This document shows, piece after piece, positions 21,980 through 62,188 of a stretch of DNA of 64,000 bases. The position numbers were made by a program, and so were the translations under genes. Source of the DNA: Pseudo-nitzschia pungens (Eukaryota; Bacillariophyta; Bacillariophyceae; Bacillariales; Bacillariaceae); NCBI GenBank assembly GCA_037355855.1, contig CM074760.1:1-64000 (forward strand), written 5' to 3'. Position 1 is the stretch's first letter. Every line of letters starts with the position of its first letter. The notes under the pieces were generated by a model. That model saw nothing but the letters and a program-made list of their open reading frames with translations. It searched no databases and was not told the origin of the DNA.

Positions 21980-24520
21980 ATGCGTTTCGAGACTTCTGCC
22001 CTGACAGCTACTTTGGCACTTGCTTCTGCCAACATAATGGAAGAAGAAATCGGCAATTCTATTGGATCTGCGAGTCACCTGTTCCATCATGAAGTGGCTT
22101 CGGAAGAGCTTCTGAGTGAAGAACAGGTGGAGTTTGCTTTCCAGCCTTCCAAAACAGTTTTGGAGAATACTCCTTTGACTTCAACGAGTGAGCTCGGTGC
22201 AAGTGTGAACGGGATGGAATCAACTGGAACTGTAGACACTGGCCTCTTGATGACAACTAACCTGATCCCCGAGGATGATGCAGGAGGAGCTGCAGAAAGT
22301 CCACTGGAAGAAGATGAGATGTTTGGGCGTGAGCTTGAAACTCTTCCAGATTTTTGCCAAGAATTCTGTGACCAATTTCATGAAGTCAGTTATGACAGCA
22401 GATACCTACTCTATAATGCAGTCTTCTATTGTTATAGCGTTTCCCCGGATCCGACGAATTGCCTCCACCCTAATGTTCCGATGACTTGTTGGAACGTTCA
22501 GAAGGTTGCTAACATGTCTAAACTGTTCAATTCTATGGTGGATTTCAATGATGCACTTGATTGTTGGGATGTGTCGCATGTAACTTCAATGGACCATATG
22601 TTTTACAGCAATTATCAGTTCAATCAAGATCTCAGCGCCTGGAATGTTTCTAATGTGACTTCAATGGAATACATGTTTTCCAAAGCGCACAAATTCAACT
22701 CTGATGTCCGTGAATGGGATGTTTCGAAAGTTACCTCAACTCAATATATGTTTCGCAACGCAACAACGTTCAATCAATGCTTGGGAACATGGCCCCTGAA
22801 GGCATCTAGCCTGCAATACAAATTCTATATGTTCGCAGGGTCTGGGTGCCCTTCCCAGTATGTTTATAATGCAACTACATGGTGCCAGGATGCATTTGAT
22901 GGGTGTTATAACACTCTTCCAAAGTCCTTCAGTAAACACCAGATTGTGCGTGCCACAAACAATGATGGTAAATTTGCGGAAGTCACGACTTTGAAACCGT
23001 TTGGGTTCGAAACCTTTTTCGAAGCAAGCGACGAGAACAACATCGTTCTTGAAATATTTGTAAATGTACCAACTGGCAGTCCCTGCACTGCTGGCGTGCC
23101 CCTTGACAAAAGTAAATACAACGGCAGTAAGACCAAGATGGAGTCTACAGCGAACGAAACAACCATCTGTGAGTTGATTCTATTTCCCATGATCGTTATT
23201 TTCCAACTTGCTCTCTCTTTGTGGATGCTCACCCTGAGATTTTCTTTTCTGCTTGATTGAAACAAGCAGATAAAGCAGAATTTGTTATCGAGGATGTACT
23301 TACCATCCAAGGTTACGATGCAAAGAATAGCACTGTTACTCTCTGTAAGATTGAAACCTTGGCAAACGCAGATTTTGGGTCATGCTGTGAAAACTGTTAC
23401 AATTACTCATCCTCAAAATTCCATGTGTTTCTTTCACTCAATTATAATTGCAGGTGCCAGAGCTGCCAAAAAAGTGAATTTTGACACGTCCACAGATGAA
23501 GCTGAGTATGTTTCAGTTGTTGACACTGTGATCAAGGCAACGATAGATTGGGGTGGAGAATTTGGTGGAGGTGAATACGGAGATTTTATCCAAGCCGTGA
23601 ACATTGATAAAGTTGAAGAAAAAACCTACGAAGAATCTGTCAGTGCTAAAATTGCAGTCTCCGTTATGTTGTGCGCTCCTTTCAGAACCGCTGACTCAAC
23701 CTACAAAATGGGGGAGGAATTCGGTCTCTGTGTTCGTCCTACTCAAGAATTCATTGATGAGGGCTACCGTGTCACAGGTTTCAAGAGCGTTGTGTGCTCC
23801 AATGCCGATGAAAGTCGAATATTGATTGAACAGTCAGTGGTTAAAGAAACCGCGCTGACCCGGGTGATTGATGGTTCGGTTGCCTTTGATACGAATGGAG
23901 ATCTTGTCGGTCGTACTGCTGCGGGCTTTGTGAGCCTCATCACAGCGGGTTTCGTTGCAAATGGTAGAAGCAAATTTACCTGCACTGGGAAGGTATCCTT
24001 GGCTACGAGTACAACCCCTACACCTTTCGCAACCCTACCCCCTACAACAGGGGTCCCGTTGGGATCAAATCCCCCGACGGTATCAGAGATACCATCAGAG
24101 ATACCAACAGCGTCACCAGAACCAACAGCCGGGGTATACCCTACAGTAGCCCCTACAAGAACCCCTACAAGAACCCCTACAGAAATACCAACAGCGTCAC
24201 AAAAACCAACAGCCGGGGTATACCCTACAGTAGCCCCTACAAGATTCCCTACAAGAACCCCTACAAGATTCCCTACAAGAACCCCTACAAGATTCCCTAC
24301 AAGAACCCCTACAAACCACCCTACCAGTTCCGGTACTCCGCCCGATCGAGCGAGGTTCCTCAGTCCCCTCCGAGAAGACAGCGAAATCAGTCCTAGCCTC
24401 AGTTCCTTTTCCTTCACCATTGGTGTAGACACCGTAGACAACGTCTCTTTGAGTGCAAGTGCAGCCATAGTTGGCTGTGTGGGTGCTTTGTTGCTTCCAA
24501 TTCTTGTGACAATGATGTGA
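21980..24520 (+). CDS. BspA-like (DUF285) surface protein with PT-repeat stalk
   Basis: Three exons: 21980-23168, 23267-23344 and 23454-24520, giving 777 residues. Both introns (98 and 109 nt) have GTGAGT/GTAAGA donors and start after the first base of a codon. Residues 1-18 are a weak signal-peptide candidate. Residues ~168-290 hold four to five BspA/DUF285 repeats of about 25 residues (pattern W-N/D-VSxVTSMxxMF then FNxDL), a family common on bacterial and protist surfaces. A middle region of unknown fold follows. Then come PTRTPTRFPTRTPT-type repeats, and a hydrophobic C-terminus (AAIVGCVGALLLPILVTMM) that could be a membrane anchor or GPI signal. Likely extracellular and surface-tethered; the ligand is unknown. 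Confidence 0.85.
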
Positions 24521-38195: not shown

Positions 38196-41100
38196 ATGGC
38201 ATTCCAGGCCCGTAATCCCATTACCAAAAGACGGGGAAGCAAGGCCTCTTCCCAATCGGTCTTTTCGACTTTCCTGAAGGTCGCGTATGCTACGACTCTG
38301 CTAGGAAGTGCTCTGGCGAACGCTTCGGAAAGCACTTCTTGGTTTGGGAGTTCCGAATCTAACAGCAATAGCAACAGCAACGGCAACAGCAACGGCAACA
38401 ACAACGGCAACGGAAATAACATCCACGCCATCCGTGCAAACGAGGTACGACGAGTCACGAGCCACGCGAACGCAAAGCCAAGCCACGCAAAACAAACCAA
38501 AACAAACAAGCAAGCGAGCATGCACCGTAATTTTGAATGCGAATGGCCTGACGTGGCGTTGCTTTGCTCTGCTCGAATTGTATGTTTCTCTTGTCGAGTG
38601 AGGCTCACCTGCACTGCGCGTACTTTTTTCTATTTGTGTTTGCTTTTGTGTTTACTTCTGTGTTGTCTGCGTTTGTGTTGTCATTTCAAGCTCGTGGAGG
38701 CTGAGAATGATCCTATCCCAATGACCTCCATGACGCTGGATAGTTACAGACCTCTCACGACCGATGTCACTGAGAAACAAATAGTTGTAGATGGTTGGAA
38801 TTATGTTGACTTGAACGATCACGATGACGATGACGATGGCGAAGACGACGACGATAACTATTACGATGACGATGACGACGACGATTATGATGATGATGAT
38901 GATGACGAAGACGAAGACGATCACTATCACGATGACGATGACGTCGAAGAGGACGATGATGACTACGAGAATGACAGGGATGATGAGGAGAAAGAGACCA
39001 ACTCCGTTGAATTAGAGCTGGAGCGAGAGCTTGGCAAGAAGAAAAATGTCAGTCGGCCTCGAACGAAACCCAAAAACAAGAAGCGGAACAAGTCTCCCCA
39101 AACCTCCGTCAACAAAAAGAAATCCAGAAGTAAGAAGAAAAAGAGGAATGCAGATGATATAGTCACCTTTCCCGAATATATCCAGGTGACCATTCCTTAT
39201 GACGCTCCCATTGAGGATTTCACGTGCAACGGATTGTTTGTCGGAACGCTGCCAGAAGATTTAGCTAACAATTTCAACATGCCCGTCAATCCTGAATCCG
39301 ACGACTACATTTTTGCCATTAGCAACATTTTCAAGACCGGCGAGAGGCTCCAAAATCTTCGCGACTGCGTCAGCGAGGACATCCTCCCCCAGCTGACCCA
39401 GGTCAAGCAGCGCAACAAAAAGGGCAACACCAAGAAGAAGAATTCCCGCAATAAGAAGAAACCAAAACCAAAACCAAAGAAGAGGAATTCAAAGAATCGA
39501 AATTTGCTCCCTGGTTCCGTGTCCGAAGAACATCCCTTTGCCACCGGAGTAGAAATCTTCTCGGATGGAAACAGGAGTTTGAACGCATCTCTTGGTGATG
39601 ATAATGATCACGACAGCAATGGCGAACATGGCATGGAAGAGGAATGGGATGTTGACGATGAAAATGAAGACTACGACGAAGACTACGACGAAGACTACGA
39701 TGAAGAATATGATGAAGAATACGATGAAGATGAAGACCCTGTTTTCGAAATGGCCCGACGTCGTTTGGACTTTGACGACTCCATCTTTCCCATATGGCTT
39801 CTAGATGCTGCGCAGCAAGAACTAGTGAGTATTGTTTGTGCTGATTTTACGTTCCAACCCTTCTGGTCGCTTTGTTTTGCTTTGTTTCTTTCTTTTTGTT
39901 TCATCGTGCATCGTGCATCGTGCATCATGCTTTATGGATGCTCGTTCCTCGACAAGTGATGTCATTTATCGCCCTGCTGGGGTTCCCACCCTTGTTTCCT
40001 CCTCAATCGGTTCATTTGTGTTTTCCCTTTGTTGCTTGAACGATGTTCTACTCCATTCTACTCCATTCATTACAATTCAATTCGATTCAATTCGATTCAA
40101 TTCAATTCGTAACATTCAATATTCTAATCTTTGATAGCTCAATGCATGTTTCAATGAGGAGGTGCAGGTCGACCTTGGCATTCTCAACTTCTTGGATAAT
40201 AGCATCTGTCGGCAAGCACCATTCACTGATCCCGATCCGACACCTGAACCGACCGTCCGGAACAAAGAGGTCAGCCCACCAACTCCCTCCCCGATCCGGC
40301 CCACACCAAATCCCACAATGGCACCGAACCCGGCACCGAACCCGGTGCCCGCACCTCCACCTGGCGGAAAGGGAACCAAGGGCAAGGGTTTCAAGGGTAG
40401 CAAGAGCAATGGAGGCAGCGGCAGCGACAACGACAACGACAATGATACGGGAGGCAAGGGATACAAGGCATACAAAGGAGCCAAGGGCAAGGGAAGCTAC
40501 GGTTACTACGGTTACTACGACATGACGGAGCAGAAAGACCAAGCCAAAACCAACCCCAACCCCAACCCCAAGAACAAAAACAAGAACAAAAACAGGACCA
40601 AAAACAAGAAGAAGAAGAAGAAACTGCAACTGGCGGCCGCTCCAATTGATGCCGACTACTTGATTTGCGTAAGCATGATTTCAATGTGACGATGGTGTAG
40701 AGGACTTTCAATTGATTCTGTTTTGTATCGTCGATGTCTCATTCGTACTTGGATTTGCCTCGTCATGCTTGTTTCCTCTCTTTTGTTGATGCTGCTGTTG
40801 CTGTTGCTGTTGCTGTTGTTGCTGCTGCTGCCGTGCCATCCTTTTATGTTTCCTACCGTCGGTGCATCCACGAACAACAACACGGATTTATTCATTGACA
40901 AATAATATCAAACCTACTCAATGTCCCTATCTCACAGCAAACCTACCGGCTGGAATGCACCGTTCGAGCAAGCATTCCCCCAACGACGTCTCCTTCCGAG
41001 TTTCCCTCCGAGTTTCCCTCCTTGGTTCCCTCCGTGGTTCCCTCCGACTTTCCCTCCGTGGTCCCAACGGCGTTGCCCTCGCAAATTCCATCGAGCTTAC

Positions 41101-42632
41101 CCTCCTCGATGCCCTCGGCGCCCCCCAGCATAGCCGATACCGATCAGCCCTCCGTTCTTCCGTCCACCACGCCGTCTGTGATTCCTTCTAGCACGCCGTC
41201 GAGCTTGCCCTCCTCGGTGCCTTCGAGCATACCCGAAACCGGTGTGCCCTCCGTTCGTCCATCCGTTTCTCCCACCCCTGCTCCGTCGTGTCCACCCACC
41301 ACCAGTCCGTCCGACGATCCTACCGCGGGCCCAACCGGCAATCCTACCCCGGGCCCAACCGGCAAGGGCAAGGGCAAGGGATCCAAGAAGAGTGACAAGA
41401 GCAAGGGCAAGGGATCCAAGGGCTGCAAGGATAGCAAGGACAGCAAGAGCTCCGGAAAAGGAAAGGACGAGAAGGGAAGCAAGAGCAATGGAAAGAGCGA
41501 AAGCCAAGGAGACAAGAGCAGCAAGAGTGACAAGAGCGAAAAAAGCAAAGGAAAGGGCAAAGGAAAGAGCGACAAGGGAAGCAAGAGCAGCAAGAGCAGC
41601 AACGGGAAGGATGACACCGGAACTGACAATGATGACAACAACAACAACAACGATGGCGATGGCGATGGCGATGACGATGATGACAACAGCAAGGGAAGTA
41701 GCAAGGGAAGCAGCAAGGGAAGCAAGGGCAGCAAGTCCGCGAAACCCAAGAAGACGGGTGGGAAGGGAACGGAAATCCCGACGCTATCCCCCGCTCCGTC
41801 GGGATCTCCCGCTCCGTCGAAACTCTCTGGACCCACCCTTGCCCCCGGCGAAACTACGAACACAGACGGCGATGGAACCGAAATCCGAAACGACGATGCA
41901 TACGCAGACTTGTTGGACCCCTTCGACGATCAAAATAGAACCTTGATCGAGTCTGATGAGGAGGAAGAGGATCACAATGAGGACTATGCCGAGGACTACT
42001 ATGCCGAGGACTATGAGGATGAATACGAGGACGAAAGCATTGGCGAGGGTAGAGCTCTCGGGGAAGACGACGAAGAAGACGAAGAAGACGAAGACGACGA
42101 AGACGACGAAGATTGCGGATTCGGAATAGAAGCCGAATCCGACAGCACTGTCGAAACCGAAGTGGAAACCGAAAGCGACGAAGACAGCGACGAAGCTAAC
42201 CTACAGCAGATCAGAACCAATGGCCAAACGGCAAGAGTTCGCGGAAAGCGCAACAACAACAACGGGAAGCGCAACGGGAAGCGCAACGGGAAGCGCAACG
42301 GGAAGCGCAACGGAAAGCGCAACGGAAAGCGCAATCCAACGCTCACTCAGAAGCGCAATCCGAAGAATCGCAAGCCAAAGCGCAATCCAAGGAATCGCAA
42401 CCCGAGGCGCAATGGCAACATCGATTCGCAGGCACAATCCAGACGAACAAGCGAAGTCGTTGACGAGCAGAACGAGCAGAACGAGCACGACGCACGACCA
42501 CCACCGCGGGGAAGCAACAGCAACAGCATGAGCGATCCTTCCTCCTTCTCTTCCGCTTCCCATGGCACCATGGAATCTGTCTCCTCCTTTGTTTCCATGG
42601 TGCGACACAGGATGGAACAGCAAAATTACTAA
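38196..42632 (+). CDS. Secreted polyampholyte protein, tandem paralogue 1 (candidate wall/silica-associated)
   Basis: Four exons: 38196-38444, 38691-39824, 40138-40668 and 40938-42632, all phase 0, giving 1202 residues. The start is set by a signal-peptide-like N-terminus (FLKVAYATTLLGSALANASE). Exon 2 has an Asp/Glu tract, a Lys/Arg tract, a conserved module (FTCNGLFVGTLPEDLANNF ... ESDDYIFAISNIFKTGERL), another basic tract and another acidic tract. Exon 3 begins LNACFNEEVQVDLGILNF and continues with PT repeats, KGKGFKGSK and NPNP/KNKN repeats, ending DADYLIC. Exon 4 begins QTYRLEC, then PSxxPS repeats, KGKGSK/SKSSK blocks, DNNN/DGDG, acidic tracts, GKRN repeats and the end motif ESVSSFVSMVR. 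RxL tripeptides (RNL, RRL, RAL) flank the blocks, as at cleavage sites in diatom silica proteins. The wall role is inferred from composition. Exon boundaries are supported by the paralogue at 46399-49905. Confidence 0.8.
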
Positions 42633-44291
42633 CAATGTTCGGTCGAATTGAAGAATCTCATCCTAAAACGGCAACAACGCACCAGCAGGTAAATTCTTAC
42701 AACAAGAACAACGAAGACGACTGACTCTATGTGATTATTCGTTATTATTAGTAGTACTAGAATTCTAACCATCATCCTCCTACTACTAGTATTGTTCCAG
42801 AAACCTCACCAAACCACCACCAGCATTCCGGCTGTCGGAGAAAGAAGAAGAAGAACCAGTCAAGAACAAGGCACACCACCTTTTTGTGATACTACTACTA
42901 CTACTAGTAGTACTAGTACTAGTACTAGTACTAGTAGTATTGTTGAGTATATGGGACAACCCACCACCTGCTGTTTAGTCCCTCCTTCATCGTTTTCTGT
43001 GTTGTAAATTGAAAATTGCAAACAATCATGTCTAAAAATCAATTACATACTACTAATCTTACTGCACTTACTACTAGTACACGTAAGAAGAAGTCTTACC
43101 ATTCCTCCTCACTACTACTAGTAGTAGTAGTAGTATTACTGAGTACTGACAGAAACCTTTACACGATTACTAGTACCATACTCAATACTATTACGAAGTA
43201 CTACTAGACTACTAGTAGTACTACTCTAGTAGTAGTAGTACTACCAATACTAGCTCAGTATTGTTTCATTTTTTGTTGCAACGCCCGAAGCAACTTTCAT
43301 TGTTGCAGCAGTAACCTAACGAGTACCGGTAAGATTCTGGTTGTAACCTCATTCCCTATTGAGTAATCTTACTACGAATTATTGATTATTGTGGCCACAT
43401 CGGACATCATACTACAGGTCGACGAGCCCCCCTGTGACCTGCGCGCGCTTGTTCGTCCATGGCAAGATTTACCTTACAGTCATGCATTGTCTTGGCATAG
43501 TAAGGCTTACGAGTAAGGTTACGGCAAGGTTAAGTCAACTTACTTTGCCATACGACAGGTGCGGTAAACCTTAAGTCTTACCGTAGTAAGCTCTACGCAC
43601 AATCGGGAAATGATCGACCAATTGATTGAAATCACTCATCAAAAGTAAGATCTTAAAATTAAGTTAGTGTAAGGTTTACCTATCTGTAACCTTACCGGTA
43701 CAGGTAAACATAAACCTATTCATGTTGTAAGGTTACGGTAGTATTCATTTATTCATTAACCTTATTCATACTACACGTAGTAAGATTACCGGTACACGGT
43801 AATTGCTATCTACGGTAAGGTAATCTAGCAAGCATCCCGTTATCGATCGATTGATTCGTCGACTGCGGTGTCCCTTGTTCTAAGACCTTGCCTGTACCCA
43901 GAAACGAATTGAATTGCCAAGCCACCGGAACAACTCACAACATCAAAGATGCGATACAAAACGGAAAAACATCGATCCCCCACGAGACCCGGGTGGCAAC
44001 TGGCAAGTGACAGGTGAGCTACCGGTAGAGAATGATACGAAGTATCCAACAACAGAGAAGAAGCACATTGCGAATGAGAAGTCTAGACAGAACGAAAGAA
44101 ACCCGTTGTTTTTGCTAGCAAGAGAGAACTCATCACAAGACTAACTAATCTACTAGGGGATCTACTTGTAGCACTGAGCAGGGGAAAACACTCAACGAAG
44201 GACTTTGACACACAATAAAACAACAAATCAGCGGCACCATGCCACAAACTTGCTTCGACGTATGAGTATCAATATGAGTATCAAAAACACT
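42633..44291. other. Spacer between the paralogues, no gene seen
   Basis: ACTAGT/AGTACT runs at 42895-42945, 43110-43135 and 43205-43255. Dense AAGGTTAC and ACCGGTA words from 43300 on. No gene recognised. Confidence 0.5.
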
Positions 44292-44353
44292 TTAACTCAC
44301 ACTCAATCGGACGCCAGAAGCCCCTCCAAGAGCCGCACCATACACGCATCTAA

Positions 44354-44390
<37 letters not shown>

Positions 44391-45064
44391 ACTGGCCTGC
44401 TGCTGATTACGGTTACGGACTAGTAGTAGTAGTAGTTCTAGCGCTTCACGAGTCATTTGTTCAGCCGCATCATGCCACACAGCATCGCGTTTTAGGGGCA
44501 TGCAGTATGTTACCCAACATGATACCACTTCGAGATTGCGACTAGCCACAGCCAGTTTCGATACCGGTACACAACCCTGGTTGTCCGATTTTGTTTGCAA
44601 CGGAACCTTGCATTCGTCTGCGAGGTATGCAATCGCTGCTTTATTGGGCAGTTCATGACGTCCTGCCGCAGCATAGCGCAGTGCATTCTTTAATATAGCG
44701 TCATTTTCGGTCACGTCATCTGCCTTCCTTTCGCTGACCAACCATTTCACAACATTTAGTAAATGCCCCCGTGAAGCAGCATGGTGATGCAACGCATTCG
44801 GCATTTCTGTACCACGAAAAAAGTTGCGTGTTGTACTGCGCGCCATTTCGTTCACGAAATGCTGTAGTAATTCCAACTGCCCCTTGACAGCACCGTAGCT
44901 TACAGGGGTATGTTGTACGGTAAGGTCTTACCCCCACTAGAAGTTTCAAAAGACTGATGCAATGCATTATTGTTTTGTACAATAATGTCTTTTATAGTCT
45001 CCCAATACTCTTCATATACATCTTCATCGTCTCCATCTTCCTCCGGTTTATCTACAACCTTCAT
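44292..45064 (-). pseudogene. Ankyrin-repeat-like gene, frame-broken
   Basis: From the ATG at 45064 an acidic N-terminus (KPEEDGDDEDVYEEYWETI) leads to NNNALHQSFETSSGGKT. Near 44905-44915 the reading must change frame (equivalent to one lost base) to reach TPVSYGAVKGQLELLQHF and ALHHHAASRGHLLNVVKWLV, which look like ankyrin repeats. A DNDN run (about 44345-44400) copies a GTTGTC microsatellite just before the stop at 44292. It lies antisense between the two paralogues and seems unrelated to them. A tiny intron is possible but would be only about 35 nt. Confidence 0.5.
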
Positions 45065-46398
45065 AAATCTTGCGCCCACGCAACCACCTCGTCGGTAAGG
45101 TTACGCTCTACGTTCATCGCCGCCCTTTTGCTTCTAATGGCACGGCAAGCACCTCGTGTTATACTGTTGCCTCGTCTCGTCTCGTCTCGTCTCGTCTCGT
45201 CTCGTCTCGTCTCGTCTCGTCTCGTCTCCTCTCGCATATTATCGCAACGGTTGGTTTCCGTATTCAATTGAATGTATGGATCGCCACCATGGCGGCACTC
45301 ACGGACGAGAGTTCCTTCGATCTCAGAATAATACGAAGTACGTAGTAATTACATAACCTTACCGCTGCATGCTCGAATAGAGTTGAGAACACTTAGTACT
45401 ACCAAATTTTAAGATCCTACAATATCTTTTAGTATTACTGTAGGTCCTAATACATAAGTACGATACATAAGTACCTAGGAACTTTAGCAAAAAAATACTA
45501 ACCCCCTTTCAACGTGAAAATGCGGATCAACTCGTCAATAATTGAAAATAATTGCAATGAAAACTATCATTGACGATTGACAAATTGTTGTGACAAACAA
45601 TTTAACGCCAATTTACCTTCGAACTCGACGTGAGTCACATACAATGACCAAAATTGGACCTCAACGTTTGCACAACGTGCGTCAAAGATCGTTGGAAAAC
45701 TCGTTGACAATTGTCGGGAATAAATATTTCAATTATTTTCTTTCATTTCGCCATTCAAGCCGGGCGACGGAACGTTCTTTTGTCAAACAACGATTCCGAG
45801 CCTATTTCATTTGTATCATCCTCGAATATCAATTTTCGAAAACGAAGAGATCCACATACCCCGAACACTGCCGTTTGCGCCTCACAATATCATCAAAAAA
45901 CGACATTGAATCTTGCAATAGATTCACCCGACGAAAACGAGTTCCGCGGGCATCGCAAGCAGCACCACAAAGAACAAGGCAAAAATGGCGAGCAGGATTG
46001 ACCATCTTTCTGTGCTTTGCAGTTCTGTGCTTTGCGGTTCGTGGGCGTCGTGTTCGGTCGAAACTGCAACAAACGTCAATGGTAACTTATTCTTTTGGCT
46101 GCGTTTCGAACACTTACGTGTACTGCGCCAAATATGCTGGGGATCGAAGCATCTCGCCAACAGAGAATGTCTTCCAAAAAAGTCTCATAAATTTTTGTCT
46201 GGGAGAAAGACTCAAACAAAAATATCACCAACGTTGTCACTGCGAAATATCTTTCGCACAACTATCCGGTCGAACAGAAAGTCAACTCTCTACGTGGGGT
46301 TTTGGCAACGCTTCCGGATAAGCACGCAATCAAGCACGCAATCAAGCACGCTCTGTGATTGATTCACCAACACTCAGTGGACAGAAGAATCATCGACC
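45065..46398. other. Spacer with CTCGT pentamer array; 5' region of paralogue 2
   Basis: 45172-45232 is a pure CTCGT microsatellite, and the same pentamer recurs at about 57520-57548. Around 45775-46001 one plus-strand frame (SNNDSEPISFVSSSNINF ... ENEFRGHRKQHHKEQGK) has protein-like composition but no recognised family and an unclear start. It may be an orphan exon. Confidence 0.4.
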
Positions 46399-47106
46399 AT
46401 GGTCTTCAAAGCTCAAAAGGAGAACGTGTCTCGCACGTCCTTTCCTGGCTTCTTGACGGTCACTCTCACCCTGACTCTGCTGGGAGGTGCCCTTGTAAAG
46501 GCTTCCGAGAGCGATTCCTGGTTCGGTAACACCAACAATGTAGCTGGTGAAGCAAACGAGGTACGGCGACCAACGACCAACGACCAGTAGTTCTGTTTTG
46601 CTCTGCATTGCTTTGCTTTGCATTTGCTTTGCATTGCTGTTTGCTGTGTTTGCTTTGTTCTGCTTTGTTCTGCTTTGCATTGCATTCGATTCAATCCCTT
46701 GCAGTGCTTGTCACTCACTCACAAGAGTATTGCATCTCCTGTTTTTTGTTTCGCTGGCATTCTCATTCTCATTCTCATTCTCAACCTCAACCTCAACCTC
46801 AACCTTATTCTCGCGAACAACAACGGCATTCGCGATTCTCTTCCCAACTCGTGATCTGGCAGAACACTCCCATTCCCCCCGTGGCCTCGTTGACCCTAAC
46901 TGTCAATGGGAAATCCATGCTGGATGCCGAGGAGAAACAACTAGTCGTTCCCGGATGGAACGACGCCACCTGGAACAATGACATCGACTCAAACGATGAA
47001 GACGAAGACGACGAAGACGACGACTACGATGAAGAGGATGATGATGAATATGAAGATGAAGACGAAGATGACGAAGATGAAGATGAAGACGAAGATGAAG
47101 ATGAAG

Positions 47107-47137
<31 letters not shown>

Positions 47138-49905
47138 GGACTCCGAAGACGACCATGACCAGGAAGTAGCGATGGCTCGAGAACTCGGTTCGCAGGGCAA
47201 GAAGAAGAAGAAGAAACCCAACAAAAAAGTCCAAAACAAGAAACCACCAAAGAAACCCTCCAAGGATAAGACCAAGAAGAAGGACGCACAGGAGGAAACA
47301 CGTGTTCGTAACAAGGAAGACGTTTGGCCCGGTTATGGCAAACTTACATTGCCGGTGCTTTTCACCGATGACGGAATCATAGATACGCTGTTAACTCCCT
47401 TTGTTTGTAATGGATTGTATTTGGATGAGTTAAGCGAGTTGGATGCTCAGGAAGTGGGTCTCCCCCCTAATCCTACCCTCGACGACTACGCCCTCGTATT
47501 CAATACTATCTTTCAAACTCAGGACCGAATTACCACTATGCGCCAGGAGATCGTTGATACTGTTTTACCAGTGATTTTCTCTCAAGGCAAGAAGAAGAAG
47601 AACACCACCAACAAGAAGAAAAACAACAAGAAAACCGACTCAAAGAAGCGACAGTTGATGTCCGGTGCTCTTCCCACTGGAACAGAGACATTCTCTGACG
47701 AAATCATCGCTCACGAAGTTCTAAGCGACGAGGATGATGAATCCGAAAACGAGGCACAAGCAGATAGCATTGACGACATCTACGATAATGATGAAGACGA
47801 AGACGATGACGAAGACGATGACGATGACGATGACGACGATGGGGAGATCATGGAATCGATCAGTCGTATGATGGCGAAAAGAAAGAAAAAGAATTTTATC
47901 GACTACCCACCCTTTCCACCCTTTCCCGAAGTGAAACTGAATTCTATTGCGCGAAAGAATGTGAGTTACCTGGCAATATTCTTCAGTCGTTTTGGCTGAT
48001 TTGTTTCTTGTTGTGAAGTTCACTGACATGTACTTCTATGATTTCGTTTCGATGCCTCACTCACCACCCTTTTTCTGATGTGTGTTCTGCCTGTGTCAAT
48101 GAACCTGTTTCTTTCCAATTCAATATCCATCGCGACGAAAGCTCGCCACGGCCTTCAACGGTATTCTCGGTATCGATATTTCCAAAGGTCGATCTGTACA
48201 AGGTGGAATTTGTTTGCCTCCTCCGACCACAACCGCACCGACAGAAGATCCGACTTCGAGACCGACTAAATCTCCGAGTAATCCTCCAACTACTAATGCT
48301 CCGACCCCATCGAAAGGAGAAGACGGAAAGGGAAAAGGAACGAAAGGAAAAGGAACCAAAGGAAAAGGAACCAAAGGAAAAGATAGCAAAGATGGCAGCA
48401 AAGATGGCAAAGGAAGCAAAGGAAGCAAAGGAAGCAAGGCTTACAGCTATTACGGCAAAGGAGCCGCCAATGGTGAAACTACCGATAGTTTGGACTTCGG
48501 ATCGGAGGATGGTATTGCGGAAGCCAAGAAGAACAAGAACAAGAAAAAGAACAATGCGCTTGCAAACGCGGCCGTTCTTGATGCCGATCTTTTGATTTGT
48601 GTAAGTGCGGAGATTGCGATTGCGTTGAGTCCGTAGAATTTACGATAATTTTGTGATCATCCTTTCGGAATTTTCGTCGAAACGATGGGCATTGCGTGGC
48701 CCTATTCTCTGGTGTGTTGTCGGTTCCTTTGTTGCCACAATTGTGGTGCTTGGTGTAAAACTCACGGATCTGCACCCCCTTTCTCTTTACAGCAAACTTA
48801 CAGGTTGAAATGTCTGCCAACGGCAACACAACCACCTACACCCACTCCGTCCGACGCTCCCACACCCTCTCCGTCCGACCCTCCGACACCCTCTCCGTCC
48901 GACCCTCCGACACCCTCTCCGTCCGACGCTCCGACACCCTCTCCGTCCGACCCTCCCACACCCTCTCCGTCCGACCCTCCCACACCCTCTCCGTCCGACC
49001 CTCCCACACCCTCTCCGTCCGACCCTCCCACACCCTCTCCGTCCGACCCTCCGACCCTCTCTCCATCCAACCCTCCATCCAACCCTGATAGGGTCACAGA
49101 CCCTCCCGAAACACCACCCCCTACAATTAGGCCTACACCTGCACCCTCTAAAGGCAAAGGCAGCAAGAGCAAGGGCAAGGACACCACAAACAAGGGAACA
49201 AAGGGTAAGGACACCAAGGGTAGCAAGAGCCAGGGCAAGGATACCAAGGGTAGCAAGAGCCAGGGCAAGGACACCACCGGCGACAAGGGTAAGGACACAA
49301 AGGGTAGCAAGAGCCAGGGCAAGGACTCCAAGGGCTCCAAGAGCAAGGGCAAGGACAGCACCACGAACGGCGACGATGACGACGATGACGACGACGATGA
49401 TGGCACCACCAAGGGCAGCAACAAGGGAAGCAAGGGCAACAAATCTGCCGTCCGAAAGAACCCGAGCAAGGGGTCGGGCGCTCCATCTGTTGCTCCGGGT
49501 CCGACGGTATCTCCCGCTCCAACCGGATCTCCCGCTCCAACCGAAGCAACGACTCTGACTACAACATCCGTCGGCCCCACTACTCTTGCCGACGAGACTG
49601 ATGACGAGACCGACGACGAGACCGACGACGAGACTGATGACGAGACTGATGATGAGACCGACGACGGCGAGCTCACCACTTTCCGTCGCCAATTGGCAAG
49701 AGTTCAGGGCAAGCGCAATGGCAAGCGCAACGGCAAGCGCAGCAGCGGCCCGCGCAAGCGTCGGGAAGAAACCGAGCAAGAAGGCGGTTCCCACATTTCT
49801 TCCGCAACCTCTAACACTCTCGAATCTGTTTCTTCCTTTGTGTCCATGGTGCGTGAGACAATGGAAGAAAAGCACCAGAGGTCCAAAAAGAAGAGCAGAA
49901 ACTAG
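46399..49905 (+). CDS. Secreted polyampholyte protein, tandem paralogue 2
   Basis: Four exons: 46399-46560, 46863-47960, 48142-48600 and 48793-49905, all phase 0, giving 943 residues. The exon plan matches 38196-42632. The N-terminus is VTLTLTLLGGALVKASESD; paralogue 1 also has LLGxAL and ASESxSWFG. Exon 2 has a long D/E tract, KKKKKPNKK, the conserved module (PFVCNGLYLDELSELDAQE ... TLDDYALVFNTIFQTQDRI), RQLMSG and a second acidic tract. Exon 3 starts LATAFNGILGIDISKGRS and ends DADLLIC after KGKGTKGKG repeats. Exon 4 starts QTYRLKC, then PSDPPTPSPSDPPTPSPSD repeats, KGKDTKGSKSQ blocks, ETDDETDDE, GKRNGKR and ESVSSFVSMVR near the C-terminus. Likely secretory; the wall or silica role is inference. 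Confidence 0.8.
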
Positions 49906-51502: not shown

Positions 51503-52168
51503 TCACGCTGCCTGCGGGCGTTGTTCCCGCGTGGTGGAAGAGCGAGAGCGGCTCTTGCGGGATTTCTTGATGGTTTTCTTGGAACCGCGATGGTTGGGAT
51601 TGCTGCCGCCCTTGGATCTCTTGATGCTCGGATCGGTTGCAGTTGCGGTTGCTCTTGCCCCGGGTGACGGGCGCTGTGGTGCTTTGGTTCCGGCGTTTGC
51701 GTCTGCATTGGCATTGGCGTTAGAATTGACACTGCCCGGAGTCGCTGTCGCCAGGGGCAGAAGTGGCAGCAGCTGCGGTGATCGTGGGTGGTGGTGGAGT
51801 CCGGCCTTGGCTCTGGCGGGTTTGGCGTTGTTTGGTGCTTTGTTTTCTTTTTCGTTGCTGGTTTGTTCTTCGTAAAAGGCTTCGAACAGGGTCTCCAGCA
51901 TTTCGCCGTATCGAGAGCGTTCCAGGAGTTGTTCCGGATCGTACTGCTGCTGCTGCTGTTCCTTTTGCAGCTGTTCTCGTACGTGTTGCGTTGTTTGCCT
52001 GCGTTTTGGAGGCCGCGGTCGCCTTTGGCAGTGGGGTTGGCAATCCTTTTTCTGGCTGGTGTACTGGATGCGGGCATCCGCCATCGAGGATACTAGTAGT
52101 ATCCACAGCATGAGGACCAGGCAGAAGGGCAGGGACAGCGTTGTTCGGTATACAAGGCAGGAATTCAT
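51503..52168 (-). CDS. Small secreted basic protein, unknown family
   Basis: 221 residues from the ATG at 52168. Residues ~8-32 are a strong signal peptide (LSLPFCLVLMLWILLVSSMA). The mature start has CQPHCQ and a basic segment, then a Gln/Glu-rich helix-like part (VREQLQKEQQQQQYDPEQ, LLERSRYGEMLETLFEAF). A NANANADANA run follows, and a Lys/Arg/Ser-rich tail (KKTIKKSRKSRSRSSTTR). The tail composition recalls the basic blocks of the paralogues at 38196-49905, but no alignable homology is visible. Probably secreted; function unknown. Confidence 0.7.
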   Translation of the reverse strand: MNSCLVYRTTLSLPFCLVLMLWILLVSSMADARIQYTSQKKDCQPHCQRRPRPPKRRQTTQHVREQLQKEQQQQQYDPEQLLERSRYGEMLETLFEAFYEEQTSNEKENKAPNNAKPARAKAGLHHHPRSPQLLPLLPLATATPGSVNSNANANADANAGTKAPQRPSPGARATATATDPSIKRSKGGSNPNHRGSKKTIKKSRKSRSRSSTTREQRPQAA

Positions 52169-55100
52169 GGTTGGCTGTATTGGAATCGAGATGGGTTCGG
52201 AGGGCTACGAGACTTCTAAGAAATTGTGAGCTTTTGTGTTGTCTTGTGTTGTCTTGTGTATGTGGTTTAGTGATTGATTTGTAATGAGCTGCAATGGAAC
52301 ACAAGTTAATCGTAATTTTGAGACCGGTATTGGAAACGATGAAAATATGAGTGAATGCGCAAAGGCAGGTGTAATATGTATCTTGTATTTTGTGTTCTGA
52401 ATTTTGTGGAGTGCTGGTGTACGGTGATGTGTTGTGATCTCCGGAATTTATCTGTATCCCCTACCGAGTTGTTGAGTCATACCGGTATGTTGTGAAGTGT
52501 TTCGGGTGTTTCGGTACAGAGTGTGCAACCAATGGGAAGAACGCTCGAGCTTTGTTCGCTCGAAGACATTTTGGTACTGTGAAACAAATTATGACACCGT
52601 TTTCATTCAGACGCAAAGTTGCCCTTCTACGAGCGAAAAACCCCGAAAGGCACTTTCCACATTTTTTAATGGTCCCGCTCCGTCCTCAACCGGACTATTC
52701 AATACCGGATTCCCAGTTAAAACGCGACCAAGAAGTATCATATTTTTCTATAGAACCAACCAATGAATCATGAGCAATTGAATTTTTTTCATCAAAAGAT
52801 AAGGAAACCGCGATTTCGTAGAATAGTATGACGTTTGAAACAAAATGAGAAGGGGCACTAAATTCATTGAGTAGGATTTAAGTTCTTGGTACCGTATCGC
52901 GTGCGTTTGTACCACCCAAACCCGGAATTTAGAAAGCGATTGAGACACGTATCGGCACTTCATCAAGTTCTCCCTGGACAGAAGATACCAGTACCGTAAA
53001 AGCTGCATGAATCAAACAATTATAGTTGTTCATACAAAAAACGAAGTAAAAAAACTAAAAAGCTAGAATGAGTGATAATCACATTGTTCCTAAGAATGTT
53101 TGCACGTCTGCAGCCAGTATTGTTGTGAGGACTGCTACCATAATTGTACCTGTTCAGCGGGTATTGTAATCGTGATTGAAGAAGAACAAGCTGCTTCGTG
53201 ATTGGCCACGTTCTGTGAATGGACACGTGCGACGAGCTTTAACCGGCACTACGGATGTTAGGACTAAATACATCTGGGAAGCTTTCTTGTAAGCGGTCGT
53301 CTTCGTTCTTCTCCATACACAAAAATTAATTAATAACTTACCACACGTAATGCAAGTAAGGTGACGAGTAACCTTACTCGTCCCGGTAAACGCATTACTA
53401 ATGTTCTCTGATAATAATATCGCTGACATTGTTGCATCATAACCTTACTATTACTACCGTATTATTTTTCTTCTTCTAGGATCAGAGTAGTATGGTACGA
53501 ATCTATCCGACCGATTCTATCATCTCATCTCTCAATAATGTCAACGAAAAACTTTCTTTTTCCGCGTCCGGTGTTTCGGAAAAAAGAACCACCGCATCCC
53601 CGAAGTTACTACTATTCGAATACGGTAGTAGAAAACACCGACGTACCGTCGTACCACCACCAGCAAAGCCCCACCACCACCACCATGCAACCTCGAAAGT
53701 CGTCTGCTCTCTGCTGAACATCCCATGCGAGTTGTTGTTGTTGAACCGAACCAACGGATGAAGGGATGATGATGATGATGAATAAGGGATGCATCACCAC
53801 GACCCTTTGCTGGTTTGTAACAATCAACAATCAACAATCATGCCTCCATGCATCATATTGCCAGCAGCTTGTTCTTCTTCTTGTAGCGCTTCTTGTCCTT
53901 TTTGGAAAAATCCTAGTAACTTCTAAAGTATTAACCCAATAGCAACAATGAATGGCTCATTAGAAAGCTGTCACTCTCCTCTTCCCATAGGTATATGGTT
54001 TTATATACTTTAGAGCTGGTCTTGTTGTTGTAAATACTCAATGAAGTATACTCAAGGGAACACTTGAATTTTAGAGGTACCTTCGATTTTGGGCATCCTT
54101 TTCTACTACTAGTACCGGTAAGGTAGAGACTCATTGGACTAAAAAAATTGTTATGGCGATCAGTACGTAATTTCTTCTTTTGAGAACTATGGTACATATG
54201 AAAGGTAAGATCAACGAAATCGCAACTCCTTGAGCGAAGCACGCGAAGCACGAGATTTGACTAAAAAGATAAACAATCTAACCAGAATTTCGGGAAATGA
54301 GTAATATTATTATTATTATTTGTATTACGAAAAATTTGACTAAAAAGATAAAAAATCTAACTTGAATCGAAACAACTAATTGTTTAGTCGAATGAGTCTT
54401 TACTAGTAAGAAAGGACGCCACCGCCGGCACTAGACGATAGTGGGGGCTTCTTGCTGCGACGACTAGGTCATGCGCACGAAGTAGTAGCACGGGAATGAA
54501 GAATCAAACATCTCATCAAAAAATAAATCGCCGATCAAAATCGTCTTACCGGTAAGTCTTACTTTTCATCCCCCTCGTTGTTTCTGTTGTTGGTGGCATC
54601 CTGCTGGTGGCGATGCTGGTTGGTGGTGGTGGTGGTGACATTGTGATATCTATCTGGCACCTGCATTTGTTGGCAATCGCGGGACGGCTCGTGGAGTCGT
54701 GGCTGGTTCGGTCGTGAAACAATCGGCGGGCGCAATGCTATGAGGCATCGTCACAAGTGCGCATTGAAATCATAAGCATATGAAAGAGTGATGAATACCC
54801 AGACACCCGACTCACTCGGGTGGGTGCAATTTTTTGGACCGTTAGCGAGATTGGCGATATAGTGTTATGTGTACGAGCGCGCACTGGTGACACCCCCTCG
54901 GAGTGTACAGAGAGACGAATGGGAAGAAGGAATGAATGAAAATCGCCTGAACCAATCCCAACAAAAAATACTCACAAATGAGTTCGGTAAGTTACGGTAA
55001 GATTACTTGTACATCGTAGGGTACGAAAGATTACCGGTACGTAAGGACCCAATATTCCGGTCGTACTAAACTTGTATGATGTGTTACGTACCATGTGCGG

Positions 55101-58640: not shown

Positions 58641-60799
58641 CACAATCATCCATTGTTGCTCTGTCAAAACACTGCGTCTGTCCCTGTCGTCGATCCAAGA
58701 TACCGATACGGATACGGATACCGATACCGATTATGATACCGATGTTGCAATGGATAACCAATAGATACATATCGTTGGCCACAGTCCTGTCCTCCGCAAG
58801 GATCATCCTTTTTGTCAAGTCAGAGTGCTGTATGCACTGTACGGTGTTGGTACTGCATCTGGTATGGATACCGTACGAACCTGCTTCCAGCTTGCAGGCG
58901 TGAGTGCTGAAGGTATCCTTATGATACCGGTACTGGAATCAACAATCAACCGGGTGGTGGTACTTGCTGAACTATTAGAGCCCACCTGTTGCTGATGCGC
59001 GCTTTGTTCTTCTGTTTTGAAAGTAGTTTTTGTTGTCCTCAGTTGCTCTATTGTCGTCACTCGGTCCTCTCGTTACAAGTATCGAGGCCTTACGGTATGG
59101 TATCTGCCAAAGCAAAAGCCCGAATCATTCGTTCGCAAATTGCAGGGGCCATCCGCAATAGTATCTTTTTATGATGAAGAGTTTGGGGGTGGTCGGTGCT
59201 CCGTGATCTGTCTCAAGAGTAAGGTTACGAGTACCAGGTAATCTGAAGGTTACAGAACTTTCTCGTAATCTTACTCGTAATTACCTAGTACGTACTAGGA
59301 GTCCGCAAATCTGTGAATCTGCAAATCTACGTACTAGTACTAGAACGTGTGCCCATACGCTACGTACGTAGTCGAAGCAGATACCTCTCCAACATTGAAC
59401 ATTGGTCCTGATAATGGGTCGTGCCCCTTCAATACTCGTACCGGGATCGAAAAGTCGTTTATAATGTGCGGCACTGTCAGAGTAATCTTACGGTAAATTA
59501 CGTAACCTTACTGTCTCCTCGACTTAGCGCTAGGTAAAATAATTGCAGTATTACCGTAGGATGTAATCTTAGGGGTACAAGTAATTCACTAGCGCATTTT
59601 GGATTTGGTGTCAAGCAAACTATGACACCTGGAAAGAAAGGTTGAGCATCACACGAATGGAAGGTGTTCTGATTGGACGATATCAGTACGGTAGATTTGT
59701 TCTCGTTTTTGACAAACTACCTGAAGAAACGACCGAAGTTGAAGTTGTTTCGACCCAAACTACAGAATTCTTATCAGCTGTCCCCGGGATTCAGTAGAAA
59801 TTAGTAGTCGGGGACGTAGAACCCGGGGACTGCTAATAAGAATTTTGTAGTACTTACCGGTAGACTAGATAGTTTCGTGAAAATGATTCAATAGCCCGAA
59901 ATAATTCCAATTATTTTAATTGAGAAAATTGTGGATAATGAGAAATCATTTTAAAAACAATAAGTAAATTACGTGTAATTATTTCGCAAACATTTCTGAC
60001 GATTAGCAGAAAAATATGCGGTAATTAGTGAGCAGCATATCAGAAGAAAAAGATCAGAGTCAGAGTGTCTAGATACTACGTATAATGGATACGAGTAGGC
60101 CAGCGAACAAAACGTGGTGTCACACAACTTCCTATCTCGCAAATAATGTGATACAGAAGAAACAGTATCGAAATAGACGTGTCTTGAGGGATCGAAAATG
60201 TTCTCAGAAAAAATGACGTTGATTTTAAAAAGCTCTTCCGTGAAAACCGCCAACTCCGACCACTCCTAGGGATCATACGTCCGAACTTCTGTGTTGCTAA
60301 ACGTTAAGGTTACTTGTACCCGCACGAAGGAGTGAGATGGGTTTTCTTGGATGTGCAACTCCGCCGTGTTTAGGAATGGAGCTCCCGCATCTCACATCAA
60401 CCAGCGTCAACTCGCGAAGCCGAAGAATTTTTAATTTTTAAAAAATGACACAAGAACTTGCACAAGCAATTTTCCAAAAGTTCTGTTCCGATCACCTTCA
60501 CCGCACAAACAAAAAAAAATAAGAATCACAAGTGAAGACAGAAAAACATCACTGTTACCTACTCGTACGGTACAGGTAATCTCATCTTTTTCTTTTTCAA
60601 CTCCACTTCAACCCGGAACAAAGATTGAATTGATTGCTATCGGTAGGGTAACCTTACCCCAACACTTTATCTCAATCAATATTGCATATCTTTTTTCGAT
60701 ACCCACACAACGTATCCTCTTTCTTGCTGTCCATTCAAGTAAGACCTTACTCGACTCTCATTTCAGTTGCCTACCGACAAGTTTTGATTCCAAAATACA
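58641..60799. other. Spacer with a short MITE
   Basis: 58695-58745 has a GATACCGATACGGATACGG microsatellite. A family C MITE is at 59760-59850. Otherwise no gene recognised. Confidence 0.5.
59760..59850. mobile_element. Family C MITE, 91-bp short form
   Basis: The left end CTACAGAATTCTTATCAGCT and the right end (reverse complement CTACAAAATTCTTATTAGC) frame a 91-bp near-hairpin with inner CCCCGGG and CCCGGGG blocks. The right flank is TA; the left flank is AA rather than TA. Confidence 0.75.
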
Positions 60800-62188
60800 A
60801 TGGCAATCATCCATACAACCGCTCGCGCCAAGCCATCCACCATGCTGGACGCCAGCCTGCGAAGACACCACGAACACGAACCAAGCATCATCAGAACGGC
60901 GGAGGAAGCCATGGCCGCTGTCACGAAGGACGGCCTGTCACTCCGATGGGCTGCCGATGAACTCCGAAACGATGAGCGTGTAGTGATGGTCGCTGTCGCG
61001 CAGAACGGTCACGCCCTTCAGTATACCTCGGAGAAGCTCAAGAACCACGAGAAGGTGGTGACGATCGCGGCACAACAGAACGGCCACGCCCTGAAACACG
61101 CCTCCTTCCGAATGAAGAACAACAAGACGATCGTCCTGAACACCGTGACGAAGTTTGGCTACGCCCTCCAGCACGCCTCCGATGCATTGAAGAACGACCA
61201 CCAAGTCGTCCTGGCCGCTGTCGAGCAGCACGCCCTCCTGGCTCTGGGATACGCCTCGGAGAAATTGCGGAACGATCGCACAATTGCCATGGCCGCGGTG
61301 ACGAGGCACAGCCTGGCCCTGAAATTCGTGTCGCGCGAGTTGAGGAACGACCTCCTGATCGCCACCGCCGCTGTGACCCGGGACAGTCTGGCGCTGCAGT
61401 TCGTGTCACCTTCCCTGAAAAAGAACCGGGGTGTCGTCACGGCGGCGGTCCGACAGCACGGCCAGGCCCTGCAGCTTGTGTCGGGCGAGATGAAGAACGA
61501 TCGCCGGGTGGTCCTGGCTGCCGTCCGACACTACGGCCGAGCACTGCAATTCGCAGCCCTCCCCATGAGGAACGACCCCGAAATCGTCAAAGAAGCCGTC
61601 CGACAGAATGGTGATGCGCTGTGGCACGCGTCCCACGAAATGAAGAGCAACAAGGAGGTGGCGCTCGCCGCGGTTCGACAAAAAGGAGCGGCGTTGAGAT
61701 ACGTGTCGGAGGAATTGAGGAACGACCCCGAAGTGGTGGCAACCGCCGTGGCGCGGAACGGCCACGCCCTGCTCTATGCGTCGGACGAGCTGCGGAACCA
61801 CACAGAGGTAGTCGCGTTGGCGGTGCAACAAAACGCACTGGCGCTGGAATTTGCCTCGGAACAACTGCGGGACAACCCAGAAATAGTCATGACGGCGGTG
61901 AAAGTCAACGCCATGGCGCTGGAGTTTGCCTCCGAAAACTGCCGGAAGGACAGAGAGATCGTCTTAGAAGCCGTCAATCGGAACGGAATGGCCCTGAAAC
62001 ACGCTTCCGAGATAATCAAGGACATGGACTTTGGCGTAAGCTCAGTTGCACTCAAACAGAACCCGAACGCCTGCAGGTATCTATCTCGTGACTGGATCGT
62101 CGAGGCCATCACGCTGACTCCTCTTGCTACGAAAGACCACCAACACCAACAGAAACACCACCAACACCAGAGACGGGCGTTGATTTAG
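60800..62188 (+). CDS. DUF4116 repeat protein
   Basis: 462 residues, single exon, ATG at 60800. After a short hydrophilic N-terminus there are about 15 back-to-back DUF4116 repeats of 23-24 residues. The pattern is VVxAAVxQNGxALxxASxELRND, each probably a helix pair; examples are VMVAVAQNGHALQYTSEKLK and VATAVARNGHALLYASDELR. DUF4116 is a repeat family of unknown function, abundant in diatoms and some other protists, probably a solenoid for protein binding. The fifth repeat carries one extra residue. The C-terminus is Gln/His-rich (HQHQQKHHQHQRR). GC content is well above the spacer. No signal peptide, so probably cytosolic. A decayed relative is at 57660-58640. Confidence 0.85.
   Translation: MAIIHTTARAKPSTMLDASLRRHHEHEPSIIRTAEEAMAAVTKDGLSLRWAADELRNDERVVMVAVAQNGHALQYTSEKLKNHEKVVTIAAQQNGHALKHASFRMKNNKTIVLNTVTKFGYALQHASDALKNDHQVVLAAVEQHALLALGYASEKLRNDRTIAMAAVTRHSLALKFVSRELRNDLLIATAAVTRDSLALQFVSPSLKKNRGVVTAAVRQHGQALQLVSGEMKNDRRVVLAAVRHYGRALQFAALPMRNDPEIVKEAVRQNGDALWHASHEMKSNKEVALAAVRQKGAALRYVSEELRNDPEVVATAVARNGHALLYASDELRNHTEVVALAVQQNALALEFASEQLRDNPEIVMTAVKVNAMALEFASENCRKDREIVLEAVNRNGMALKHASEIIKDMDFGVSSVALKQNPNACRYLSRDWIVEAITLTPLATKDHQHQQKHHQHQRRALI

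Follow-up and report, generated by a model that had tools for sequence, protein, structure and literature searches.

The 64,000-base window analyzed here (contig C3, bases 1-64000, of the diatom Pseudo-nitzschia pungens) encodes two neighboring genes, termed A and B, whose predicted products are large and rich in charged blocks. An earlier reading made from the letters of this stretch (the sequence-only reading) had taken A and B as tandem paralogs with a conserved module of their own. Comparison with the whole genome (66.9 Mb, 28 contigs) confirms, at the level of sequence homology, that A and B belong to a real paralog family and extends that family from two genes to five. With regard to what the genes encode, the balance tips modestly toward A and B being soluble, silaffin-like precursors that would follow the secretory route, be processed at RXL tripeptides, and contribute, with a core tied by disulfides, to a charge-paired phase that binds silica.

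A search of the six-frame translated genome with the exon-2 module of A, which contains a CxGL motif, recovered B (E = 5e-8) and loci on contigs C9 (9e-13), C1 (1e-10), and C5 (7e-8), referred to below as the C9, C1, and C5 paralogs. The modules of A, B, C9, and C1 together retrieved five loci from the whole genome and no sixth, no query having been made with the C5 module. The A and C1 modules each recovered all five loci at E ≤ 1e-3 and that of C9 recovered all five at E ≤ 1 (the weakest at 0.06), while the B module recovered four of the five at E ≤ 1e-3 and missed C9. A 75-residue query from exon 3 of A matched nothing besides itself, and a C-terminal query matched A and B only, missing the C9 end.

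The four-exon plan of A and B also fits C5, C1, and C9. Exon models were built by hand from canonical splice sites that fit the paralogs and are therefore predicted, homology-based structures. In A and B they contain no internal stops and every intron runs from GT to AG; across the five models, all 15 introns are in phase 0. An alternative acceptor at 38691 would add five in-frame residues to exon 2 of A; the acceptor chosen, at 38706, is homologous to that of B. The common plan with three phase-0 introns, the exon-edge sequences DAD(Y/L)LIC and QTYRL(E/K)C that meet at the exon 3/4 joint, and the shared order of acidic, lysine-rich, PT/PS, and GKRN blocks are all as the sequence-only reading described them in A and B. 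The genome-wide E-values and the exon plan common to five genes indicate that the resemblance of A and B is not due to chance. Two details of that reading hold in part. The CNGL motif is indeed shared by A and B, but the module is not as small as CNGL, its conserved part spanning ~70-80 residues. The ESVSSFVSMVR end is present in A and B, but across the family it is limited to three of five members (A, B, and, as DSLSTFISM, C9); a motif scan of three forward frames detected no ESVSSF-type end in the C5 and C1 stretches. In C1 the last exon consists of 5.1 kb of PS-repeat sequence whose open frame stops within the repeat, at an apparent change of frame, and the end of C1 is thus uncertain. The PS repeat continues there in other frames, which may stem from the assembly, from variation in length, or from decay.

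The proportion of nonsynonymous differences (pN) was lower than that of synonymous differences (pS) in each of the 10 module pairs and in each of the 30 pairwise comparisons of exons 1-3, which took in the low-complexity blocks. The ratio of nonsynonymous to synonymous substitution rates (dN/dS) between B and C5 was ~0.44, 0.32, 0.51, and 0.48 for exon 1, exon 2, exon 3, and the module, respectively, and that between the C5 and C1 modules was 0.70; many other pairs were saturated. By these measures, the family proteins are constrained yet fast-evolving. This bears on whether the genes could be decaying or repeat-driven open frames without protein function. Such an origin would accord with the large share of simple repeats, with the C1 frame ending in a repeat with a possible frame change, and with the lack of a C-terminal part in C5. 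Nevertheless, five copies have retained the four-exon plan, splice sites, invariant residues, and pN < pS, and we regard an artifact of this kind as very improbable.

Module identities range from 26 to 43% (C5-C1 43%, B-C5 39%, A-C9 38%, A-C1 37%, A-B 35%) and separate the members poorly, such that the tree is not settled by identity alone. When the B module was searched against the six-frame translation, C1 outscored C5. No pair is closer than B and C5 over exons 1 and 2 (34/54 and 173/340 residues identical, respectively), and these two also share DNA similarity in exons, an intron, and 44 bases upstream; A and C9 share the sequence ARR(R)LxFDDSIF and two additional cysteines. In exons 1-3 and the module, synonymous divergence between A and B has reached saturation, while that between B and C5 has not (dS 0.5-1.3). 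This saturation rules out a recent tandem duplication and suggests that A and B are old neighbors. The term tandem consequently applies loosely: the genes are both on the plus strand and 3.8 kb apart, with an ankyrin-repeat open reading frame (ORF) on the opposite strand between them.

The five proteins agree in block order from the first through the second acidic block. An acidic block (32-74% Asp/Glu) is followed by RE(L/F)G, a Lys/Arg block, the CxGL module, a Lys/Arg block (37-56%), RxL, a short piece without Lys or Arg, and a second acidic block (52-65% Asp/Glu). These compositions were measured between anchors picked by eye, which missed the start of the B module and merged its two flanking segments. 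RXL tripeptides were identified at three internal charge junctions of this order, with site 1 present in four, site 2 in five, and site 3 in four of the five proteins. Published descriptions of silaffins, frustulins, cingulins, and silacidins propose RXL as the motif at which these proteins are processed, by a protease that is unknown (PMC4557024, PMC5647440, PMC5501833, PMC5525289).

The five proteins contain 26 RXL triplets, 25 of which were analyzed (one near the N-terminus of C1 was dropped). The mean absolute step in net charge at these 25, comparing 30 residues on each side, was 15.8. Random places gave a mean of 7.3, random arginines 10.2, and places chosen by their leucine 8.8, and none of the 5000 draws in any of these controls reached 15.8. 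Charge steps of ≥ 12 coincided with 15 of the 25 triplets (P = 0.03 versus random arginines). RXL therefore favors charge steps, though most steps have none.

Four cysteines are invariant in the five proteins, located in CxGL, (S/G)IC, (L/F)IC, and YRxxC, and these are the only cysteines in B. A (304, 460) and C9 (251, 402) carry an additional pair, split between the module and the start of exon 3, and neither position is cysteine in B, C5, or C1. Three further cysteines occur elsewhere in each of A and C9. This pattern suggests, short of proof given one likely evolutionary event, that the module encoded by exon 2 and the beginning of exon 3 are neighbors in the same fold, from which the charged inserts loop out. 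The exon-2 alignment has 476 columns, 30 of them invariant; these include the three specified residues of RE.G at site 1 and both R and L at site 2. In the exon-3 alignment, 20 of 233 columns are invariant. The placement of RXL at internal charge junctions and the invariant cysteine pattern are new relative to the sequence-only reading.

That reading had also likened A and B to silaffin-like proteins, and we compared all five members with silica-class criteria drawn from sections of PMC5501833 and PMC3478156. Maxima of 12-residue hydropathy at the N-terminus were 2.77 in C1, 2.64 in C9, 2.55 in C5, 1.90 in B, and 1.43 in A, indicating a hydrophobic segment that is strong in C5, C9, and C1, moderate in B, and weak in A (as judged by hydropathy and the -3/-1 rule only). 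Beyond the first 60 residues, the highest 19-residue hydropathy in the five proteins is 1.16, with no further membrane-like stretch. Pentalysine clusters (five non-consecutive lysines in 12-14 residues) are present in all five proteins, numbering 3-9 by a lenient count and 4-10 by a count without touching lysines, with the every-third-residue form K..K..K..K..K limited to A, B, and C5. K[SG][SG]K motifs number 4-9 in each of the five, and a spacing rule of 1-6 residues, as coded here, holds in four. Windows of 100 residues with ≥ 18% Ser and ≥ 10% Lys are found in all five (6 in B and 41-151 in the others), though no whole protein qualifies. Each protein has between 35 and 266 PT/PS tetrapeptides, and each has RXL, scored as presence of the tripeptide (a putative cleavage site), with site 2 invariant. 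Lysine clusters arise easily in lysine-rich blocks, and these features thus indicate class resemblance rather than proof of function. The likeness to the silaffin-like class was accordingly borne out in large part, for lysine clusters, RXL, PT/PS repeats, Ser/Lys windows, and, if weakly in A, the N-terminal hydrophobic segment.

The long PT/PS repeats (266 xP[TS]x tetrapeptides in C1) also fit secreted proteins that belong to mucilage, adhesive trails, or an organic surface coat and not to silica. In that case the repeats would serve as mucin-like, glycosylated spacers, and the charged blocks would form a gel together with calcium and polysaccharide. Neighboring genes in the window that encode surface-type proteins (DUF285, gametolysin) likewise accord with a surface role. 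The tetrapeptide GDPH, a label of adhesion, is absent from all five proteins, and no Pfam domain above cut-off was detected in exons 2-4 of A and B. Moreover, Thalassiosira pseudonana silaffin-like proteins, as described in sections of PMC5501833, also have PT repeats, lysine clusters, and RXL. We consider a mucilage or surface-coat role unlikely, though deserving of serious attention.

Searches for known domains yielded no relative of the module. The five modules had no match in Pfam, NCBIfam contained no relative of them, and matches to the Protein Data Bank (PDB) were at chance level. A similarity of the module to XIAP/BIR domains was rejected (E = 0.4 to 1.8 over ~20 residues). The claim that the module is not a known, unrelated domain is thus upheld in Pfam, NCBIfam, and PDB. 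When exons 2-4 of A and B were compared with Pfam, matches fell only below cut-offs and on charged or Pro-rich stretches. These included weak similarity to YL1, Cwf15, and Nop14, which, together with the many basic clusters, would be expected if the proteins were intracellular nuclear or nucleolar acidic/basic proteins of low complexity (of the YL1 or Nop14 type) with an incidental N-terminal hydrophobic stretch. All of these matches were under curated cut-offs and confined to charged blocks, and identity with such nuclear proteins was rejected. In addition, a hydrophobic N-terminal segment encoded by its own exon is kept in all five paralogs, if weakly in A, and the four conserved cysteines would suit an oxidizing compartment. 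A nuclear location is accordingly improbable.

In the silaffin-like precursor reading that we favor, the proteins, made in a raphid pennate diatom, would probably be routed via the secretory pathway, as predicted from hydropathy alone, to the silica deposition vesicle or cell wall. A small cysteine core would be assembled from three pieces, namely the CxGL module (exon 2), LxxxF..DL..SIC (start of exon 3), and the LIC-QTYRLxC joint of exons 3 and 4, with long, presumably disordered, charged inserts between them. Since RXL is located at three junctions of acidic and lysine-rich sequence, a diatom RXL protease would excise acidic peptides and leave a cationic CxGL piece with flanking lysine clusters, while disulfides would hold the core pieces together. 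After modification of the lysine/KGSK blocks, these and the acidic blocks would pair by charge into a phase able to bind and shape silica. A more speculative extension, which we think rather doubtful, is that each gene is a complete silica-patterning kit, in which RXL cuts would release an acidic pool and a cationic binder in fixed ratio from a disulfide-tied core, as in insulin. Inserts would then drift freely while the core, cut sites, and charge order would be kept.

Several observations weigh against the silaffin-like precursor reading. The N-terminal hydrophobic segment of A is weak (1.43), A lacks the required K[SG][SG]K spacing, and the acidic blocks are poor in serine. C5 ends before the acidic, GKRN, and ESVSSF parts. 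Cysteine totals are odd in A, C9, and C1 (9, 9, and 7, respectively), such that at least one cysteine in each is unpaired within the chain, and the additional cysteine pair may represent a single evolutionary event. C1 lacks site 1 (REF) and B lacks site 3 (RMM); moreover, site 3 was matched by position and not by alignment column, and past it the composition diverges, with acidic sequence in A and C9 but basic sequence in the other three. Charge steps of ≥ 12 are lacking at 10 of the 25 triplets. Conversely, among the 35 strong charge steps in exons 1-3, an RXL lies within 10 residues of only 11 (A 3/8, B 2/6, C5 2/7, C9 3/7, and C1 1/7, with a background of 8-18% of positions per protein), and the 24 without one include the module edges and the point where the first acidic block begins. 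Relative to local shuffles, RXL is only weakly enriched in exons 1-3 (P = 0.01 in A, 0.05 in C5 and C9, 0.10 in B, and 0.28 in C1), and because RXL sites are homologous between proteins, the 25 triplets are not independent events.

Features of genes A and B (window positions) and the other family members (contig positions) as modeled here; paired values at RXL sites are net charge over the 30 residues before and the 30 residues after.
Feature	Position	Strand	Length	Content
Gene A exons	38196-38444, 38706-39824, 40138-40668, 40938-42632	+	1197 aa	
A exon 1	38196-38444	+		basic N-region, hydrophobic segment (residues ~22-43), then ASESTSWFG
A exon 2	38706-39824	+		acidic, REL, Lys, CxGL module, Lys, RNL, acidic, RRL
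A RXL site 1 (REL)	39024-39032	+		acidic-to-basic junction, -17/+14
A CxGL module	39168-39410	+	81 aa	
A RXL site 2 (RNL)	39498-39506	+		basic-to-acidic junction, +16/-3; R348 and L350 invariant in five
A RXL site 3 (RRL)	39759-39767	+		behind second acidic block, -18/-7
A exon 3	40138-40668	+		LNACF..VDL..SIC, PT-rich, KGKG, Tyr-rich patch, end DADYLIC
A exon 4	40938-42632	+		QTYRLEC, PS repeats, KGSK/SDK lysine block, Asp runs, acidic, GKRN, ESVSSFVSMVR
Gene B exons	46399-46560, 46863-47960, 48142-48600, 48793-49905	+	943 aa	
B exon 1	46399-46560	+		signal-peptide-like (hydropathy), ASESDSWFG
B exon 2	46863-47960	+		acidic, REL, Lys, CNGL module, Lys, RQL, acidic
B RXL site 1 (REL)	47178-47186	+		-21/+14
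B CxGL module	47313-47585	+	91 aa (query)	
B RXL site 2 (RQL)	47649-47657	+		+10/-10
B exon 3	48142-48600	+		LATAF..IDI..GIC, PT, KGKGTKGKG, end DADLLIC
B exon 4	48793-49905	+		QTYRLKC, PTPSPSD repeats, lysine block, Asp run, RRQL, GKRN, ESVSSFVSMVR
C5 member	contig C5, 188252-191278	-	792 aa	
C1 member	contig C1, 5402394-5410454	-	2395 aa	
C9 member	contig C9, 3954732-3958930	+	1160 aa	

Relatives beyond this genome were sought in a large protein collection. Residues 234-330 of A gave 19 candidates, none at E ≤ 1, and the exon-2 alignment of the five proteins, masked for low complexity, gave 7999 scored candidates, again none at E ≤ 1. As a control, a silicon transporter from the same genome matched 1222 proteins at E ≤ 1e-10 among 8000 candidates scored. 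Among the matches listed, at least 120 in number, the best had 96% identity and MMETSP, EukProt, Nitzschia, and Pseudo-nitzschia entries were present, including relatives from Pseudo-nitzschia heimii (83%) and Nitzschia inconspicua (up to 75%). This indicates that the collection includes diatoms, and the named relatives make a raphid pennate host of the Bacillariaceae likely. However, the protein searches need shared 5-residue words, restrict length, and missed the family itself, which makes absence from the collection weak evidence; relatives in other diatoms may fall below word-match sensitivity. Of 162 pattern matches in viral contigs, none was confirmed. The family was not met in a literature survey in which the motif itself was not searched and which had subscription papers and supplements outside its scope. 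The suggestion that the family is possibly undescribed therefore gains from the lack of matches in Pfam, NCBIfam, PDB, and the protein collection, tempered by the insensitivity of the collection search. Overall, A and B most likely represent a new family inside the silaffin-like class.

The silicon transporter family (PF03842) has 11 matches in the genome, 4 of which cover most of the model, and its presence identifies the host as a diatom. Four transporter matches, corresponding to approximately three domains in a row, fall within a single open frame of 1696 residues (C3:7803825-7808126), possibly a transporter polyprotein. Within the window, the minus-strand frame at 9409-11145 is a gametolysin-type peptidase M11 (Pfam) with an N-terminal hydrophobic stretch seen by eye, and its product is probably a secreted metalloprotease. 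A DUF285 surface-type protein at 21881-24520 is followed by a frame with PT repeats and a hydrophobic C-terminal end, and a protein built from 12 DUF4116 repeats is encoded at 60788-62188. On the strand opposite gene B and 1.6 kb past it, positions 51503-52204 (minus strand) encode a small basic protein with a hydrophobic N-terminus (by eye) and no Pfam match. Approximately 33 diverged copies of a 41-base tandem repeat occupy positions 7494-8868. A related array occurs at a distance of 2.3-3.7 kb on the upstream side of the C9 paralog (L020:11-1475), and the repeat is therefore a dispersed minisatellite. Approximately 1.7 kb upstream of the C1 paralog, a minus-strand frame (C1:5412109-5413500) resembles, by eye, a fragment of a retroelement RNase H/integrase polyprotein.

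Diatom silica proteins are often alike in composition with little in common in sequence, and tracing or comparing families is difficult as a result. If a family keeps its core, introns, and RXL sites fixed around drifting inserts, homology searches, comparison of paralogs, and clean mutants (of cut sites, cysteines, or single inserts) would become possible. Such a family could also reveal whether synthesis in one chain sets the dose of acidic and basic wall peptides.

Comparison with known wall proteins draws on the sections of the cited papers that describe them. Like SAPs, SiMat7-like proteins, and silicanins, the family has a signal-like N-terminus and RXL (PMC5647440, PMC5501833, PMC5525289); the conserved domain differs, judged by description. 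Membership in these groups was rejected, as hydropathy indicates no transmembrane segment (maximum of 1.16 beyond residue 60). The family resembles cingulins in that lysine-rich sequence adjoins a Tyr-rich patch, one that stands out in A and C9 (PMC4557024, PMC9650480). Cingulin membership was rejected, since there is one patch and no repeated alternation (the maximum of Tyr/Trp per 20 residues in exon 3 is 10 in C9, 7 in A, and 3-4 in the others). As in silacidin precursors, acidic stretches adjoin RXL (PMC4557024). Silacidin membership was likewise rejected: the acidic blocks of exon 2 have 32-74% Asp/Glu, 3-15% Pro+Ser+Thr, and no repeat units. The Sil1p precursor of Cylindrotheca fusiformis similarly joins an acidic N-terminal part to a basic part, and its mature peptides, as described in the section cited, are without the RRIL/RRNL-type sequences (PMC4557024). 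Unlike Sil1p, the family is without tandem units of the R1-R7 type and has a conserved cysteine core, a separation made on description. The T. pseudonana silaffin-like and KXXK proteins share with it a signal-like segment, lysine clusters, KXXK-type motifs, RXL sites, PT repeats, and Ser/Lys-rich windows (PMC5501833, PMC3478156). In contrast to the T. pseudonana silaffin-like proteins as these sections present them, members of the family described here have long Asp/Glu blocks of opposite charge and are homologous to one another in the CxGL module, the four cysteines, and the exon plan.

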